Shown: one piece after another, positions 17,153 to 24,821 of the stretch
Position numbering within the stretch: the stretch's first letter is position 1
Layout: every line of letters starts with the position of its first letter
Assembly: GCA_016432325.1 (NCBI GenBank)
Contig: CP066684.1
Location: 1 to 64,000 of the forward strand
Direction: 5' to 3'
DNA length: 64,000 nucleotides
Source of the DNA: Candidatus Aenigmatarchaeota archaeon
GTDB taxonomy: Archaea; Aenigmatarchaeota; Aenigmatarchaeia; PWEA01; JACQIF01
The notes under the pieces: generated by a model
What the model saw: the letters and a program-made list of their open reading frames with translations, nothing else
Database searches by the model: none
What the model was told of the DNA's origin: nothing
Translations under genes and position numbers: made by a program

Positions 17153-17425
17153 TCATTTTGCCTTGCGCTTCGGCTTGGATTCAGCTGAACCGGACAGCGC
17201 CACAACAGCTACGTTGAAGGGCTTTCCATATATAACCCCAAGTTCGCGCGAATCGCCTTCGAAGCTCTCCACGTTCGCACCGGCCTTCTGCAGTTCGGCC
17301 ACGTACGCGGCCGGACAGTTCTGCGCCGTCACGACAGTGCGTGCGCCTGCGGCGACGGCGCGCTTCGCGGCCCTGAAGCCGAGAACGACAGACCCCTTGT
17401 GAGCGACAAGCGCGGCGCGATCCAT
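17153..17425 (-). CDS. rpl30e: Ribosomal protein eL30
   Basis: 90 residues from MDRAALVAHKGS; the ATG overlaps the rpoA'' stop (ATGA). The L7Ae/L30e pattern is seen (GSVVLGFRAAKRAVAAGA, TAQNCPAAYVAEL). A Lys/Arg tail ends the protein. Large-subunit protein in its canonical place between rpoA'' and nusA. Confidence 0.9.
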   Translation of the reverse strand: MDRAALVAHKGSVVLGFRAAKRAVAAGARTVVTAQNCPAAYVAELQKAGANVESFEGDSRELGVIYGKPFNVAVVALSGSAESKPKRKAK

Positions 17426-18582
17426 CACTTGACACCCTTCTTCGTTTTGGTCTTCGAGAACACCAGATCGCACATTCCTGTTCCGACAGGAGCGACCTGG
17501 TTTATCATGACGTTCTCTATTATCGAGTCCAGTTCGTCAGTCTCCCCCTCGACTGCCGCGTCCATAAGCGTCGTCACTGTGGTCTCGAAGTTCGCGCGCG
17601 CCAGCACAGAGCCCTTTTCTCCGGCGACTCCGTAGCGGCCGACGGGCTTGATGCTGCCGTCGGCGCACATCACGTCGGCTACGAGCAGGAGGTGCCTTAT
17701 GTCGACGTCCAGCCCCTGTTCGCTCAGCGTCTTGTCCGCCTCGCGGATTATCGCGTTGCGCGCCGCCTCAATTCCCAGCACTTTCTCAACCTCGCGGATA
17801 TCGTTGCATACTGTCCTGTGGCGGTCGACGCCTGGCATCGCGAGAATCTTCTTGAGGTTTGAACCTATGGTGAATATGAACCAGCTTCCCTTGTCGTCCT
17901 TGCGAACGACGACCTGTCCGATGCCCTTCAGGCCGCTTATCTGCGTGTTGAGTATGCGCACCTTTCTCTTTTGCAGGTCGCGCACGCTGAGCTCTTTCTT
18001 CGGTATGAACACAAGCGTGTCGGTGTCGAACTCGACGTTGAGATCGCGCGCGTTCTTGCGCACCGACTTCACAAGGTCGTCGCCTGTAATACCGAGACGG
18101 CCGAGGTCTTCGGCCTTTACCTTGATGTTCAGGCGGGAGTTCACGAGGTCTATGCTGTCTTCGACGGCTATGTTGTGAAGAACGGACTCCTTGATGCGCG
18201 AAGCGAGATCTGTCGCGGCCTCTTTCGTGTTGTGTTCCTCGTCCATGTATATCTCCATCGTTGGAGTGGAAGGCGTTCGGCGGGCGTCCACGATTTCGAT
18301 GAGCCTCGGCAGTCCGAGAGTCACTTCACGGCCCGCGGCGCCGACGAAGTGATAAACGCGCATGGTCATCTGCGTTGCGGGTTCTGATATGGACTGCGCG
18401 GCGATGACGCCTATGGCTTCGCAAGGCTCGTACTTGGCGTCTTCGTATATCTCGACCACCTTCGCTATGACGGCCTCTGCCTTCTTGCGGTCCGGCCTGT
18501 GCTTCTCGAGGCTCTGGACGAGGCGCTCCTTGAGGCTCTCCGGCATGTCCAAATCGCGAACGATCTCTCTGTAATCAACCAT
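17425..18582 (-). CDS. rpoA2: RNA polymerase subunit A'' (Rpo1C)
   Basis: 385 residues, usual size for the split C-terminal part of the largest subunit. It shows AIGVIAAQSISEPATQMTMRVYHFVGAAGREVTLGLPRL (trigger loop/bridge region, given here only as family recognition) and ARANFETTVTTLMDAAVEGETDEL near the end. It follows the B'-A' fusion gene by three bases, so A' and A'' remain separate proteins even though A' is fused to B'. Confidence 0.95.
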   Translation of the reverse strand: MVDYREIVRDLDMPESLKERLVQSLEKHRPDRKKAEAVIAKVVEIYEDAKYEPCEAIGVIAAQSISEPATQMTMRVYHFVGAAGREVTLGLPRLIEIVDARRTPSTPTMEIYMDEEHNTKEAATDLASRIKESVLHNIAVEDSIDLVNSRLNIKVKAEDLGRLGITGDDLVKSVRKNARDLNVEFDTDTLVFIPKKELSVRDLQKRKVRILNTQISGLKGIGQVVVRKDDKGSWFIFTIGSNLKKILAMPGVDRHRTVCNDIREVEKVLGIEAARNAIIREADKTLSEQGLDVDIRHLLLVADVMCADGSIKPVGRYGVAGEKGSVLARANFETTVTTLMDAAVEGETDELDSIIENVMINQVAPVGTGMCDLVFSKTKTKKGVK

Positions 18583-18585
18583 AAC

Positions 18586-21500
18586 TTACTCCTCCTTCGG
18601 GCCGCTTTCGACAACGGACTCCACGATGCCTTCGACGTCTATGGTTCCCCATTCGCTCTTCGAGGGGTCTATCGCGTCTTCGGAAGGCACGAACTGCACT
18701 ATCGCCTTGCGGTCGTCGCGTATCGTGCCGTCGTACTCTATCTTGAGGTCCTGAAGCGCGTTCACGAGGCGGCGTTCCATGTATCCCGAATTGCGCGTTC
18801 GCAACGACTTGTCCATCAAGCCTTCTCGGCCGTTCATGGCGTTGAAGAAGAACTCGAACGGGTTGAGGCCGTCCTTGAAGGAGGCGGCGATGAAGCCGTG
18901 GTCCCTGGGGCCGAGGTCGTCCTTCTGGAAGTGCGAAAGCGTGCGCCCCCTGTAGCCGCGGTGTATCCTGTCTCCTTGCAGCGTCATCTGCCCTATCAGG
19001 CCGCCGAGTTGCGTGATATTGACCATGCTGCCGCGCGCGCCTGAGAGGGCCATCGCAACGATGTCGTTCTCCGGCAGGTCCGCGGCGACCACCTTGCTCG
19101 CGTTTTCCAGAGCCTCTCCGAGAACGCGCATCACGTGCGCCTCCAGGCTTTCCTTCACGGTCAATCCCGGCACTATCTCCATCTTGCCGGCCTTGTAGTC
19201 CTTGAGCACCTTCGCGCACTCTTCGTCGGACGTGTTGACTATCGCGGTTATCTTCCTGCGGGCCGCGGGCGTTATGTCAAGGTCCGACGTGCTTGCCGTG
19301 AAGCCGCGGAAACTGAGATATTCGACGCCGAGATTCGACACGCGGTCGAGGAATGTCTTTGCGGCCTCGCTGCCGTACAGTTTGTCTATCCTGTCGAGCA
19401 ACAGCCCCTTTTCCCCGCCGACGGACTTGGCGTCGACTATGCCCTGGACGAGCGCGCCGTCCTTTATCACGACAGTGGCGTCCTCGTTCTGCGGGCTGCG
19501 CGCGTAGAGCGTGTTGTTGAAGCGCATGTTGAGGTCCTTCGGGAGCACGCGAGAGAACAGCTCCTTGCCCGTCACGTCGCGGTCCACGAACTCTTCTATT
19601 TCGAGGTTGGCGAGTATCTGGTTGGCGACCTCTCTGGGCACGACGGTTCCTTTCTTCGTGAGCACGTAGAGTCCTGACAGGTGGTCCTGTATGCATCCTA
19701 TTATCGGTCCTCCGAAGCGCGGGCTGCGGATGTGTTTCTGCACGAGCATCAGCATCTCGGCCTCTGTGCGGGCCTCCTCCGTCTGCGGTACGTGCAGGTT
19801 CATCTCGTCGCCGTCAAAGTCGGCGTTGTAAGGGGCGCAGGCGCACAGGTTGAGGCGGAAGGTGCGGCCGGGCATGATTCGCACGCGGTGGGCCATTATG
19901 GACATGCGGTGCAGGGACGGTTGGCGGTTGAACAGCACGACGTCGCCGTCCCTCAGGTGGCGCTCCACTGTGTATCCGACTTCTATCTCTTCCGTGATCT
20001 CGTCCTTGTTTTCGTTGGTGATCTTCTTCTTTCTGCCGTCGGGCCTTACTATGTAGTTCGCGCCGTCCAGTTCGTCCGGGCCGCGCTTGGCGTATGCCTT
20101 CAGCGACGCCACGTTCGATTCGTTGACCTTGACAGGGATTGTCAGTTCTTTGGCCACTTCGACAGGCACTCCGACCTGGTCTATGCTGAGCTTGGAGTCC
20201 GGAGATATGACCGTACGGGAAGAGAAGTTCACGCGCTTGCCCGTGAGATTGTTGCGGAAACGCCCTTCCTTGCCCTTAAGCCTCTGCGTTATCGTGCGCA
20301 ACGCGCGGCCGGAGCGGTGGCGCGCGGGCGGAACGCCTGACAGGTCGTTGTCGAAGTATGTCGAAACGTGGTACTGCAGGAGCTCGTGGAGGTCTTCCAC
20401 TATGAAGTCTGGCGCGCCTATGGAGATGTTGTCGCGCAGCCTCTGGTTGATGCGCACGATGTCGACGAGCTTGTGCGTCAGGTCGTCTTCGGAACGTTCT
20501 CCGGTTTCCAGGGTTATCGACGGGCGCATGGTCGTCGGCGGTATCGGCATGAGCGTTATAACCATCCATTCCGGCCTGCCCCCGCGGATGCCGAGCTTCT
20601 GCGCGTCCTCGTCCGGGATGCGTTCGAACCACTCGCGTATCTTGAGCGCGTTGAGAGGCTTGTTGTCCAGCGTGAACGTGTACGGCTTGCCGAGGCGTAT
20701 AGTTCCCTGCTTGGCGCCGCAGTGCTGGCACTTGTTTCTCTTGGACGCGACCACCTCGCCCACGGCCCCTTCGACGTCCTCGACGAAGCGCCTCGTGTCG
20801 AGGGCGCGTCCGCATACTTCGCATGTGGAACGCAGCAGTTTGTACAGCGTCTTGATGTAGCGCACGTGTATTATCGGGCGCGCGAGTTCGATGAAGCCGA
20901 AGTGCCCGAGGCACGTTCCGACGCCGCCTCCGCAGATGCGGCAACGCATGCCGGGATCTATGACGCCGAGTCTCGGGTCCATCACGCCGCCGTCTATCGG
21001 GTAGCCGTCGCGGTCGTAAAGCTCGGGCCTCGATATTTCGACGGTTCCTATCTTCCTGATGAGCGCCGACGATACGATGGAGAAGCTTATCGACTGTATC
21101 TTGTGCGGTTTCGAGGCCGTGACGTTGAGCCTTGGCAGGACCATCAGGGCCTTGAGTTCGTCGAGCATCAGCTTGAAGGCGTATGACATCTCGACGTCGG
21201 CGGTCTTGGAGGTCTTGCACTGCACGCAGTATACCTTGTTCTTGTTCCAGTCGTGTACGGCGATCAGCCCGCATTTTGTGCAGACCGGGATGGTGGCGGC
21301 GTCCGACGAGAAGCGTTCCTTGAGCAGCAACGACGCCCCGTGGGCGATGAGACAGTCCTTTTCCATTTCTCCGAAACGCAGACCGCCTTCGTTTGCGCGG
21401 CCTTCGGTCGGCTGCTTGGTCAGCAGGGCGACAGGACCGCGCGAGCGGGCGTGTATCTTGTTCGCGACCATGTGTTCGAGGCGCAAGTAGTATACGGAAC

Positions 21501-22902
21501 CGATAAATATCTCAGCTTCCATCAGCCTGCCTGTGCGGCCGTTGTACATCCTCTCCTTGCCGTCGCTCCTGAAGCCGAGCTTGCGCAGAAGAGCGCGTAT
21601 GTCATCCTCGCGTTCGCCGTTGAACATTGTGCCGTCCACGATCCTGCCGTCGAGGGCGCCTGCCTTGCCGCCTATCATCTCCAACAGCTGGCCGACCGTG
21701 AGACGCGACGGTATGGCGTGCGGGTTCATTATCACGTCAGGAGCGACCCCGTTCTCCGTGAAAGGCATGTCTTCCTCGGGTACGATGAGGCCGATGACTC
21801 CCTTTTGCCCGTGGCGCGACGCGAACTTGTCCCCTATCTCCGGTATCCTCTGTTCGCGGACCGTCAGCTTCACCATCTTGTTGCCGTCCTTGCTCTCGGT
21901 CAGGAGCACCTTGTCGACGACGCCCGTTTCCCCGTTGCGCATGGTGAGAGAGGTCTCGCGGCGGTTGTGTATGCCGGCCAGGAACTCGTCGCGGCCGAGG
22001 AAACGCAGAGGCGACGTCTTGCCGACCAGAACGTCCCCGCCAACGACGGCGCTTTCAGGCGATATGAGGCCGTCTTCCTCGAGAGGCCCGTACAATTTTT
22101 CGGACAGGTAGCCGCGCACGTCTTTCTCCGGTACTTTTATCTCATCAACCTGACCGCCGCCGTATCTCATCTCCTCCGTTTGGTATGTGCGGTAGAAGAA
22201 CGAACGGCCGAAGCCCCTTTCGACTGAGGCTTTGTTGACGATGACGGCGTCCTGCATGTTGTAGCCGTCGTATGATGCCAGAGCGATGACCACGTTCTGG
22301 CCTGCGGGGTGGCGGTCCAGCCCAAGTATGGGATACGTGGAGGTGCCGACGAGAGGGACCTGGGGATAGACGAGCGTGTTCGACTTCGTGTCGGTGCGCA
22401 TGTTGTAGTTGGACGCGTAGAGGCCCAGAGTCTGGCCTACCATCTTGGCGCCGAAGTTGACGCGGTCTCCGCGGTCATATTCTCCGTAGGGGATGACAGA
22501 CGACGAGACTCCGAGTATGACGAGCGGGTTCAGCTCGAGATGCGTGGTGCTCTTGTTGATGTCTTTCTCATAAAGCGCGACGATCGAGTTCTCCTCTTCT
22601 TCGGTGTCCAGGTACTCAATTACTCCTTCCTTGATGAGGTCGTCCCACACGGCCTTGCCTTTCTTCACGTCCTCGACGTGACTCTTGGTCAGCAGGGACT
22701 TGCCGTTCTCCACCACGACGAGAGGCCTGCGAACGCGGCCGCCGTCGGTGTTGATGCGGACTTCGTCCGAAACCTCATCGTAACCGACGTTGACGTGGTG
22801 CGTGACAGAGCCGGCGCGCCTCTTCTGCCTTATGAATCCGGCGAAGTCCAGCGGGCGCTCTGTGGTTCCTATCAGCGCGCCGTTGAGCAATATGTTGGCC
22901 AT
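18586..22902 (-). CDS. RNA polymerase B'-A' fusion (Rpo2C + Rpo1N)
   Basis: One open frame of 1438 residues. Residues 1 to about 595 are the C-terminal half of subunit B (GSVTHHVNVG, YDGYNMQDAVIVNKASVERG, SRHGQKGVIG, zinc pair CTKC/CVQC, end AYKLML-like DELKALMVLPRLNV). From about 598 the sequence is subunit A' (HKIQSISFSIVSSALIRKIG, DGYPIDGGVMDPRLGVIDPG, zinc cysteines, NADFDGDEMNLH at about 1026-1037). The join (NVTASKPHK, near 21115) has no stop, no linker and no start codon exactly at the junction, although an ATG lies about seven codons upstream. Each half has near-normal length and intact motifs, so this looks like a working fusion. The N-terminal half of B is the next gene upstream, A'' the next downstream. 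Confidence 0.95.
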   Translation of the reverse strand: MANILLNGALIGTTERPLDFAGFIRQKRRAGSVTHHVNVGYDEVSDEVRINTDGGRVRRPLVVVENGKSLLTKSHVEDVKKGKAVWDDLIKEGVIEYLDTEEEENSIVALYEKDINKSTTHLELNPLVILGVSSSVIPYGEYDRGDRVNFGAKMVGQTLGLYASNYNMRTDTKSNTLVYPQVPLVGTSTYPILGLDRHPAGQNVVIALASYDGYNMQDAVIVNKASVERGFGRSFFYRTYQTEEMRYGGGQVDEIKVPEKDVRGYLSEKLYGPLEEDGLISPESAVVGGDVLVGKTSPLRFLGRDEFLAGIHNRRETSLTMRNGETGVVDKVLLTESKDGNKMVKLTVREQRIPEIGDKFASRHGQKGVIGLIVPEEDMPFTENGVAPDVIMNPHAIPSRLTVGQLLEMIGGKAGALDGRIVDGTMFNGEREDDIRALLRKLGFRSDGKERMYNGRTGRLMEAEIFIGSVYYLRLEHMVANKIHARSRGPVALLTKQPTEGRANEGGLRFGEMEKDCLIAHGASLLLKERFSSDAATIPVCTKCGLIAVHDWNKNKVYCVQCKTSKTADVEMSYAFKLMLDELKALMVLPRLNVTASKPHKIQSISFSIVSSALIRKIGTVEISRPELYDRDGYPIDGGVMDPRLGVIDPGMRCRICGGGVGTCLGHFGFIELARPIIHVRYIKTLYKLLRSTCEVCGRALDTRRFVEDVEGAVGEVVASKRNKCQHCGAKQGTIRLGKPYTFTLDNKPLNALKIREWFERIPDEDAQKLGIRGGRPEWMVITLMPIPPTTMRPSITLETGERSEDDLTHKLVDIVRINQRLRDNISIGAPDFIVEDLHELLQYHVSTYFDNDLSGVPPARHRSGRALRTITQRLKGKEGRFRNNLTGKRVNFSSRTVISPDSKLSIDQVGVPVEVAKELTIPVKVNESNVASLKAYAKRGPDELDGANYIVRPDGRKKKITNENKDEITEEIEVGYTVERHLRDGDVVLFNRQPSLHRMSIMAHRVRIMPGRTFRLNLCACAPYNADFDGDEMNLHVPQTEEARTEAEMLMLVQKHIRSPRFGGPIIGCIQDHLSGLYVLTKKGTVVPREVANQILANLEIEEFVDRDVTGKELFSRVLPKDLNMRFNNTLYARSPQNEDATVVIKDGALVQGIVDAKSVGGEKGLLLDRIDKLYGSEAAKTFLDRVSNLGVEYLSFRGFTASTSDLDITPAARRKITAIVNTSDEECAKVLKDYKAGKMEIVPGLTVKESLEAHVMRVLGEALENASKVVAADLPENDIVAMALSGARGSMVNITQLGGLIGQMTLQGDRIHRGYRGRTLSHFQKDDLGPRDHGFIAASFKDGLNPFEFFFNAMNGREGLMDKSLRTRNSGYMERRLVNALQDLKIEYDGTIRDDRKAIVQFVPSEDAIDPSKSEWGTIDVEGIVESVVESGPKEE

Positions 22903-22912
22903 AGATACGCAC

Positions 22913-24391
22913 CTACTTCAGTTTGGACTGTATCGCGTCCACGAGTTTCTTGACTTCCTCATCCTTCGCGCCTGTGCTTATCTCAGCCATCAGCGAGAGG
23001 TACTTGCGCAGACCTATCGTCGGGCCTTCAGGAGTTTCCGAAGGATCGAGACGCCCCCAGTGTGTCGCGTGCAGTTCGCGCGCCGCGAAATGCTCTTGCG
23101 TCGTGGAGAGCGGGGAGATGACGTTTCTCAGGTGAGCGACGGAACGCGTGAAGTTTGCGCGTTCGAGACGCTGGGCGACTCCTGAACGGCCGCCTATCCA
23201 CACGCCCGTTGCCATGGAAGAGCGGATCTGGTTGGTCATGACAGTCGATTCGACTACGGTCGATACTGAAGGAACCTTGCCGCGCTTGGCGATTTTCTGG
23301 TAGTTGTAGTTGATGCGGGCGATGAGACCCCACTTGCCCAGCAGGATTCCACGCACGAGCATTTCGAGAAGGTCTCCGGACGTCTTGAGGCGCTTGTTTC
23401 CATAATGGTCTATGTCGTCCTCCTCTATCTCGCCCCTGGCGAGCTGCATGAGCTTGAGGGACATGCGGCCGAGGTAGAGAGCCTTCTTCTTTCTCAGGGA
23501 GCGGTCCTGCCCGATGTGCGGGAGGAGGTAGCGGTCCAGAACCTGTTCCGACTTCTCGTGCTTCTGTTCCTTCTGTGAGAGCTTCATCTTCTTGCTGATG
23601 TATTCCAGCGCGTCCTCGGACGTGGTGACGTCGGCCTCGTAGAGGTTTGAGTATATCTCTTCGATGTATTTTTCCTCGGACGTTATCGCTTCTATTATTT
23701 CCTTGTCGCTCTCAAGCCCGAGAGCGCGCATCAGAACGACTATGGGAAGGTCCTTGATGTTTGCGACGCTCGAGACTACTATCAAGCCGTCCGCCTTGCG
23801 CATGAGCATGTGCCTCTGCGCCCAGCCGCGGCTCTCGCTGTTGATGCGCATCGTCGCGACGTCCTCTTTCATTTCGAGAATCGGTTTGTTGGGCGCCACC
23901 TCTTCGATAAGGACCAGCGCCTTCTCCGTGCCGTTGACTATGAAATAGCCGCCCGGGTCGTCCGGATCCTCTCCGGCCTTCACGAGATCCTCTTCCTTCA
24001 TTCCGGCCAGAGGGCAGAGGACGCTCTTGAGCATTATTGGAATCTCTCCGATCTTGACTTCGCTCGTGGTCTGCTCGACCCCTCCTACGATGGGAGTCAT
24101 CTCGAGGAACACGGGAGCCGAGTAGGTCAGGTCGCGCAGCCTCGCTTCCATCGGCAGTATTTCGCGCATCGAACCGTCGGCCTCTTTCACCGACGGCTTG
24201 CCGAAGCGGACTTCTCCGAGCTTGACGCGGAAGTTGGCCAGCCTTTCGCTTTCCGGGGTTATCTCCCCGATTTCGTCGACGATTCTCTGGAAGCGCGATT
24301 TGACAAACACGTTGAAGCTGTCTATCTGGAACCTGACGAGCCCGCGGCTCTTCACGAACGATCCGAGCAGATGTTCAAAATCACTCGCCAT
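22913..24391 (-). CDS. rpoB2: RNA polymerase subunit B'' (Rpo2N)
   Basis: 492 residues from MASDFEHLLGSFVKSR. It is the N-terminal half of subunit B: lobe and protrusion domains, GYFIVNGTEKALVLIEEVAPN, and the end motif RELHATHWGRLDPSETPEGPTIGL. The split between B'' and B' is the position known from methanogens and haloarchaea. Ten bases separate it from the B'-A' gene; its start overlaps the rpoH stop by 11 bases. Confidence 0.96.
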   Translation of the reverse strand: MASDFEHLLGSFVKSRGLVRFQIDSFNVFVKSRFQRIVDEIGEITPESERLANFRVKLGEVRFGKPSVKEADGSMREILPMEARLRDLTYSAPVFLEMTPIVGGVEQTTSEVKIGEIPIMLKSVLCPLAGMKEEDLVKAGEDPDDPGGYFIVNGTEKALVLIEEVAPNKPILEMKEDVATMRINSESRGWAQRHMLMRKADGLIVVSSVANIKDLPIVVLMRALGLESDKEIIEAITSEEKYIEEIYSNLYEADVTTSEDALEYISKKMKLSQKEQKHEKSEQVLDRYLLPHIGQDRSLRKKKALYLGRMSLKLMQLARGEIEEDDIDHYGNKRLKTSGDLLEMLVRGILLGKWGLIARINYNYQKIAKRGKVPSVSTVVESTVMTNQIRSSMATGVWIGGRSGVAQRLERANFTRSVAHLRNVISPLSTTQEHFAARELHATHWGRLDPSETPEGPTIGLRKYLSLMAEISTGAKDEEVKKLVDAIQSKLK

Positions 24392-24671
24392 GCGATACAC
24401 CCACAACGTATCTGTAGTAGACCGTCTTCCCCGCGGTCTGGCTCTTGCGCATTATCCTCACGACGTCTCCTGCCTTAGCTCCGATTTCCTTGGCCGCGGG
24501 ATCGTTTGCCGATATTTTTGGAAGCTGCTGTTCGCTGACGTTGAACTTCTTCAGCAGGTCGGCCTTTTCTTCCTTGCCCATTATCTCGTGCTTCGGCACC
24601 ATCGAGTGTTCGGAGACGCGAATCTCCTTGTCCTCGTCGGCCGTTTCCTTTACCTTGGTCTTTGCTGCCAT
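24381..24671 (-). CDS. rpoH: RNA polymerase subunit H (Rpo5)
   Basis: 96 residues from MAAKTKVKETADED. The compact C-terminal Rpb5 domain is complete (HSMVPKHEIMGKEEKADLLKKFNV, QLPKISANDPAAKEIGAKAGDVVRIMR). The longer upstream reading runs through hairpin repeats and is not coding. First gene of the polymerase operon. Confidence 0.94.
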   Translation of the reverse strand: MAAKTKVKETADEDKEIRVSEHSMVPKHEIMGKEEKADLLKKFNVSEQQLPKISANDPAAKEIGAKAGDVVRIMRKSQTAGKTVYYRYVVGVSHGE

Positions 24672-24821
24672 ACCGAACACCATTTCTGATACGCTCGACC
24701 GACGAACTCCAATGGCGGTGCACGAGAAGCTTCGCTTCTCGGCATATGCCGAAAGCACGGCTTTCCGTGCAGCCTCTTGGAAAGACGCGCTTTCCAAACG
24801 CCCTTGCCTTGAATGTCATGG
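24672..24821. repeat. Cluster of hairpins between rpoH and tRNA-Lys
   Basis: Four palindromes in about 80 bases: CGAGAAGC-tt-GCTTCTCG, CGGCATATGCCG, GAAAGC-acg-GCTTTC with outer CACGG/CCGTG pairing, and TTGGAAAG-acgcg-CTTTCCAA. They lie where the leader of the polymerase operon should be and immediately after the 3' end of tRNA-Lys. They may be RNA processing or terminator structures, or the mobile hairpin elements seen elsewhere. Confidence 0.6.

Follow-up and report, generated by a model that had tools for sequence, protein, structure and literature searches.

A single gene of a small-genome archaeon of the class Aenigmatarchaeia (phylum Aenigmatarchaeota) was found to carry the B' and A' pieces of RNA polymerase in one open frame, while B and A are both still split, and the sequence evidence supports this archaeal B'-A' fusion as real. 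The gene lies in the window, that is, the whole 64,000-nucleotide stretch of DNA analysed, from a genome of family f1. The same join recurs among relatives, and Aenigmatarchaeia is likely a natural hot spot in which B' and A' were fused about 12 times independently, twice as part of a B''-B'-A' chain. The number of large-subunit chains would then be evolutionarily fluid rather than fixed, and stages of the process, with internal start codons kept in some cases and decayed in others, would be visible in living lineages.

An ORF scan revealed 1438 codons without interruption from 22902 down to 18586, which is exactly the frame given in the preliminary description of this DNA, where the strand (minus) had not been named (Table 1). 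That description had also proposed that a complete B' runs into a complete A', and profile searches bore this out. The B' part scored 880.7 bits against TIGR03670, the archaeal RpoB C-terminal half (curated cut-off 811; profile positions 1–596 of 599), and the A' part 1136.5 bits against TIGR02390 (curated cut-off 1042.55; positions 2–866 of 867). Both the B' motif GDKFASRHGQKG (residue 357) and the catalytic NADFDGDEM of the A' part (residue 1026) are intact. As had been stated earlier, B'' and A'' are encoded by genes of their own, and the arrangement of rpoH and rpoB'' upstream and rpoA'' downstream is the usual archaeal gene order. A search of the whole genome (874,769 bases in one contig) returned the fused gene as the sole B'/A' match, ruling out a second, separate rpoB'/rpoA1 elsewhere. 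As there is no other copy in the genome, the fused gene has to supply both B' and A'.

Table 1. Polymerase genes of the window and the parts of the fused gene.
Feature	Coordinates	Strand	Details
Fused rpoB'-rpoA1	18586..22902	minus	1438 aa, 159.7 kDa; ATG at 22902, stop at 18588..18586
B' part, residues 1–594	21121..22902	minus	Pfam PF04566/PF04567/PF00562/PF04560 (Rpb2 domains 4–7); TIGR03670 at residues 4–595
Join, residues 595–600 (TASKPH)	21103..21120	minus	Merged tails of B' and A'
A' part, residues 601–1438	18589..21102	minus	Rpb1 domains 1–4 and start of 5 (Pfam); TIGR02390 at residues 600–1426
B'' (rpoB2), own gene, upstream	22913..24406	minus	NF007175 above cut-off; Pfam Rpb2 domains 1–3
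A'' (rpoA2), own gene, downstream	17425..18582	minus	TIGR02389 above cut-off; GGAGG precedes ATG
RpoH (Rpb5 C-terminal domain), upstream of rpoB''	24381..24797	minus	PF01191; ORF start as predicted

The DNA at the join reads AGG CTC AAC GTC / ACG GCC TCG AAA CCG CAC / AAG ATA, and residues 590–602, which span it, include LPRLNVTASKPHK. Reading of the codons confirmed that the join contains neither a stop nor ATG, GTG or TTG, the start codon of A' having been lost; the closest ATG in frame encodes residue 587, seven codons ahead of residue 594, as previously noted. The two other minus-strand frames contain 72 and 13 stops. An error of assembly or sequencing, in which a missed indel or a miscalled stop joins two separate genes, is a concern in a lineage known mostly from metagenome-assembled genomes and with some fused relatives that are fragmented drafts. 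However, the sequence between 20951 and 21280 lacks homopolymers of length five or above, and the comparison with relatives that had been suggested earlier argues strongly against such an error. A separately assembled genome of the same genus (G001, 81% identical) carries the same fusion with the join open, a linker of equal length (VATKPA) and likewise no A' start codon, and a further 19 fused loci were found. The two genomes differ by a dS of about 1.15 and a dN of 0.13 overall, with no stop and no indel across the join. Because G001 shares the open join at this high synonymous divergence, a missed indel is very unlikely, and a sequencing artefact was rejected, G001 being fused too; we consider an error of either kind extremely improbable. 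Moreover, as the frame across the join is open in both genomes, the fusion predates the split of these two species. The dN at the junction (0.32–0.42) exceeds the gene average, and the linker is thus only loosely constrained.

The join sits between the C-terminal domain of B' and the N-terminal domain of A', both of which are parts of the clamp. For the 81 residues around it, the only PDB chain matching both sides was chain A of 3QQC (Pyrococcus), which we take, from its PDB molecule name (several subunits in one chain), to be an engineered single-chain Pyrococcus clamp. In that chain the C-terminus of B is likewise joined directly to the N-terminus of A', and the alignment of the two proteins runs through the join with a gap of a single residue; it is, however, apparently man-made and comprises the clamp domain only, whereas the present fusion is natural, unites full-length pieces and is known from genes. 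An AF2 model of residues 530–720 placed strands at 588–594 and 602–609 with a short turn between them (pLDDT >90). The best PDB match of this fragment was also 3QQC, with a poor global overlay (TMq 0.41, rmsd 15 Å) that is probably due to the rest of the clamp missing from the fragment; a longer model (residues 440–930) was poor overall (pLDDT 56), and the shorter fragment was modelled instead. Given the 3QQC match and the modelled turn, the C-terminus of B' and the N-terminus of A' should be neighbours in the clamp of a normal enzyme, where a short link would be enough. The preliminary description had pointed to the physical link that the fusion creates between B' and the catalytic Mg site. 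While this is true, the key structural fact is rather that the join falls in the clamp, between ends that should already adjoin.

The open frame, the complete parts, the single copy, the lost A' start, the conservation in G001 and the recurrence elsewhere together support one chain as the product, and very probably the gene encodes one polypeptide giving the B' and A' parts. As B'' and A'' remain separate genes, the predicted polymerase would be B'' + (B'-A') + A'' plus small subunits, a composition put forward earlier; the fusion itself, with B and A both still split, is supported by the frame, the domains, the single copy and the same-genus relative. The fused product would serve in an ordinary polymerase, in which the ratio of B' to A' would be fixed at 1:1 and the two parts would come pre-assembled; a new catalytic function is not proposed for it. 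Alternatively, one frame could yield two proteins, by a cut after synthesis or by internal initiation of A', and the working enzyme would then be B'' + B' + A' + A''. The in-frame ATG at residue 587 is compatible with initiation of this kind, and four fused relatives (G041, G048, G073 and G090) retain an ATG at the former A' start or close to it, making double expression plausible there. In the gene of the window, however, as in G001, the eight codons spanning the join include no ATG, GTG or TTG. Judged by eye, no clear Shine-Dalgarno sequence precedes the ATG at 587, whereas B' and A'' of this locus do have GGTG/GGAGG-like sites; an SD-like site also occurs in 75 of the 105 separate A' genes of the class. 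We know of no candidate protease for cutting the fused chain. Two separate proteins are therefore improbable here, and a single B'-A' chain is the preferred reading.

The preliminary description had treated the fusion as a possible singleton, which did not hold. When the frame between B' and A' was tested at class loci with adjacent rpoB' and rpoA1, 21 of 126–127 were fused, belonging to seven families (f1, that of the window, f6, f11, f12, f15, f19 and f21). This count includes one locus labelled f18, from G133, which groups with f6 and is probably an f6-type contaminant; the G133 bin holds two polymerase operons (L034 and L158), one fused and f6-like and the other separate and f18-like. Two groups have an unsplit B, namely f15 (G041, G061) and the f6-type loci (G106, G133a), so that the chain becomes B''-B'-A'. 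Its length between stops is 1920–1930 aa in f15; in the f6-type loci, which are truncated upstream by the end of the contig, it is at least 1612–1629 aa. Among the loci listed from public contig records, fused ones were confined to four records of Aenigmatarchaeota: JAPLUY010000058.1 (L045), JAHLMO010000005.1 (L055), DAOWOJ010000010.1 (L069) and JAOAJH010000001.1 (L093).

Within the class, fusion was rejected for G034, G098 and G116, where a stop is present after B'. At three loci (L138, L141 and L163, from G106, G087 and G019, respectively) one stop was counted inside the genome-search match, although the reading frame continues from B' to A' without interruption; the stop count of the genome search is accordingly not usable alone for calling a fusion. 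L182 (G118) has A' and A'' in one open frame, the sole such case among the class loci tested. In family f10, rpoB' and rpoA1 are far apart or on different contigs (L250 and L251 of G018; L252 and L253 of G025), and the usual gene cluster seems to be broken.

No fusion was found, among the matches listed, in about 880 other archaeal genomes. Five phyla were covered: that of a Woesearchaeota record (371 genomes), that of a Micrarchaeota record (245 genomes) and three other archaeal phyla (90, 91 and 87 genomes). None of the matches listed for them spanned the full length without a stop. Twenty-four candidates from other phyla with long open frames were rejected, as all of them stop within 25 codons past the end of B' (G298, G173, G289, G400, G391, G270, G353, G192, G171, G371, G244, G479, G168, G281, G719, G579, G713, G646, G692, G610, G955, G887, G1002 and G857). 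In Candidatus Micrarchaeota CG1_02_47_40 (L075), the stretch between rpoB' and rpoA1 contains near-identical tandem copies of a piece that translates as LLKMKC*K*NAENE in the frame of B'.

The number of origins was assessed with a maximum-likelihood tree of 139 tips, whose input was the polymerase genes themselves (B'', B', A' and A'', concatenated). By parsimony, the fused or separate state changed at least 12 times, read as 12 gains and no losses; six of these gains are each seen in at least two loci, and six depend on single draft genomes. A single ancient fusion in Aenigmatarchaeia, repeatedly reversed later through newly acquired stops, would cost 31 losses under the single-gain constraint. 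A tree with all fused sequences as one clade was rejected (p-AU 6e-5), and the outgroups have separate genes. Fused members do cluster in part in a clade of f12, f19 and f21, within which a gain is not easily distinguished from a reversal, but the fused members of these three families alone were also rejected as one clade. A single origin is thus unlikely. Even if the f12/f19/f21 clade had one gain followed by reversals, at least five origins are required, because f1, f6, f11 and f15 lie apart. The split between B'' and B' also varies, with at least six changes of state in the class and outgroups. One genome, G004 (L229), has a one-piece B in an order whose other tested members have a split B.

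A route to repeated fusion is suggested by the spacing of the two genes. The B'-A' spacer has a median of 20.5 nt in separate members of the class versus 48 nt in 66 loci from the public contig records without assignment to the class (p = 2e-13, a statistic that ignores phylogeny). With rpoB' and rpoA1 about 20 nt apart, loss of the B' stop where the spacer is in frame would fuse the genes. Linkers of 9–21 nt are expected from stop loss in such a short spacer, and all fused cases have linkers in this range. The fused chain would be tolerated since its ends neighbour each other in the clamp, where about five linking residues may suffice. After fusion, the internal A' start codon, no longer used, would decay. 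Within f12, one fused clade has ATG (G073), TTG (G020 and G032) or TTA (G075) at the site of the former A' start, a series consistent with decay of a disused start codon.

A search of open-access papers turned up no report of a B'-A' fusion in archaea, in keeping with the earlier remark that none of a split B was known; a paper on archaeal gene fusions and fissions does not deal with RNA polymerase in its main text (PMC11237513). The closest known system is the fused RpoB-RpoC (beta-beta') that has been well described in Helicobacter and Wolinella (PMC1557499; PMC9696931). There too, the C-terminus of the second-largest subunit continues in frame into the N-terminus of the largest one, through a homologous join between neighbouring genes, and the present gene shares this layout of one frame without a stop. 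However, RpoB-RpoC is bacterial, unites whole beta and beta' (~2900 aa) and has been described as one rare genetic event uniting a clade (PMC1557499), whereas the fusion described here is archaeal, unites half-subunits of a split B and a split A, and is recurrent. The fused gene scored far below the RpoBC cut-offs (379.3 versus 5372 for NF007172 and 350.8 versus 4632 for NF011417); judged from its sequence, it would work like the bacterial beta-beta' family but is not a member of it.

Two archaeal systems offer further parallels. A one-piece A, with A' and A'' joined, occurs in Thaumarchaeota, Korarchaeota and Pacearchaeota (PMC5484517). In both cases large-subunit pieces that are separate in relatives form one chain, but the one-piece A joins two halves of one subunit and B'-A' joins two different subunits. 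The PriS-PriL primase fusion of DPANN cluster 2 likewise unites two subunits of a single nucleic-acid polymerase, and it belongs to the same wider assemblage of archaea with small genomes, although it concerns a different enzyme and has been inferred as a single event at the base of the group (PMC7414124).

Until now, joins of this kind have been regarded as rare and singular; for archaeal A, splits and fusions are described as rare and have served in rooting the Archaea (PMC5484517). Here the B'-A' join is repeated among relatives. As B' and A' were fused around a dozen times and the B split changed at least six times, fusion and split characters of the large subunits are unsafe as phylogenetic markers in this group. 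The fused clamp would represent a natural archaeal polymerase with fewer chains. Moreover, the series from separate genes through fusions with a retained start to fusions with a lost start opens the fusion process to stepwise study.
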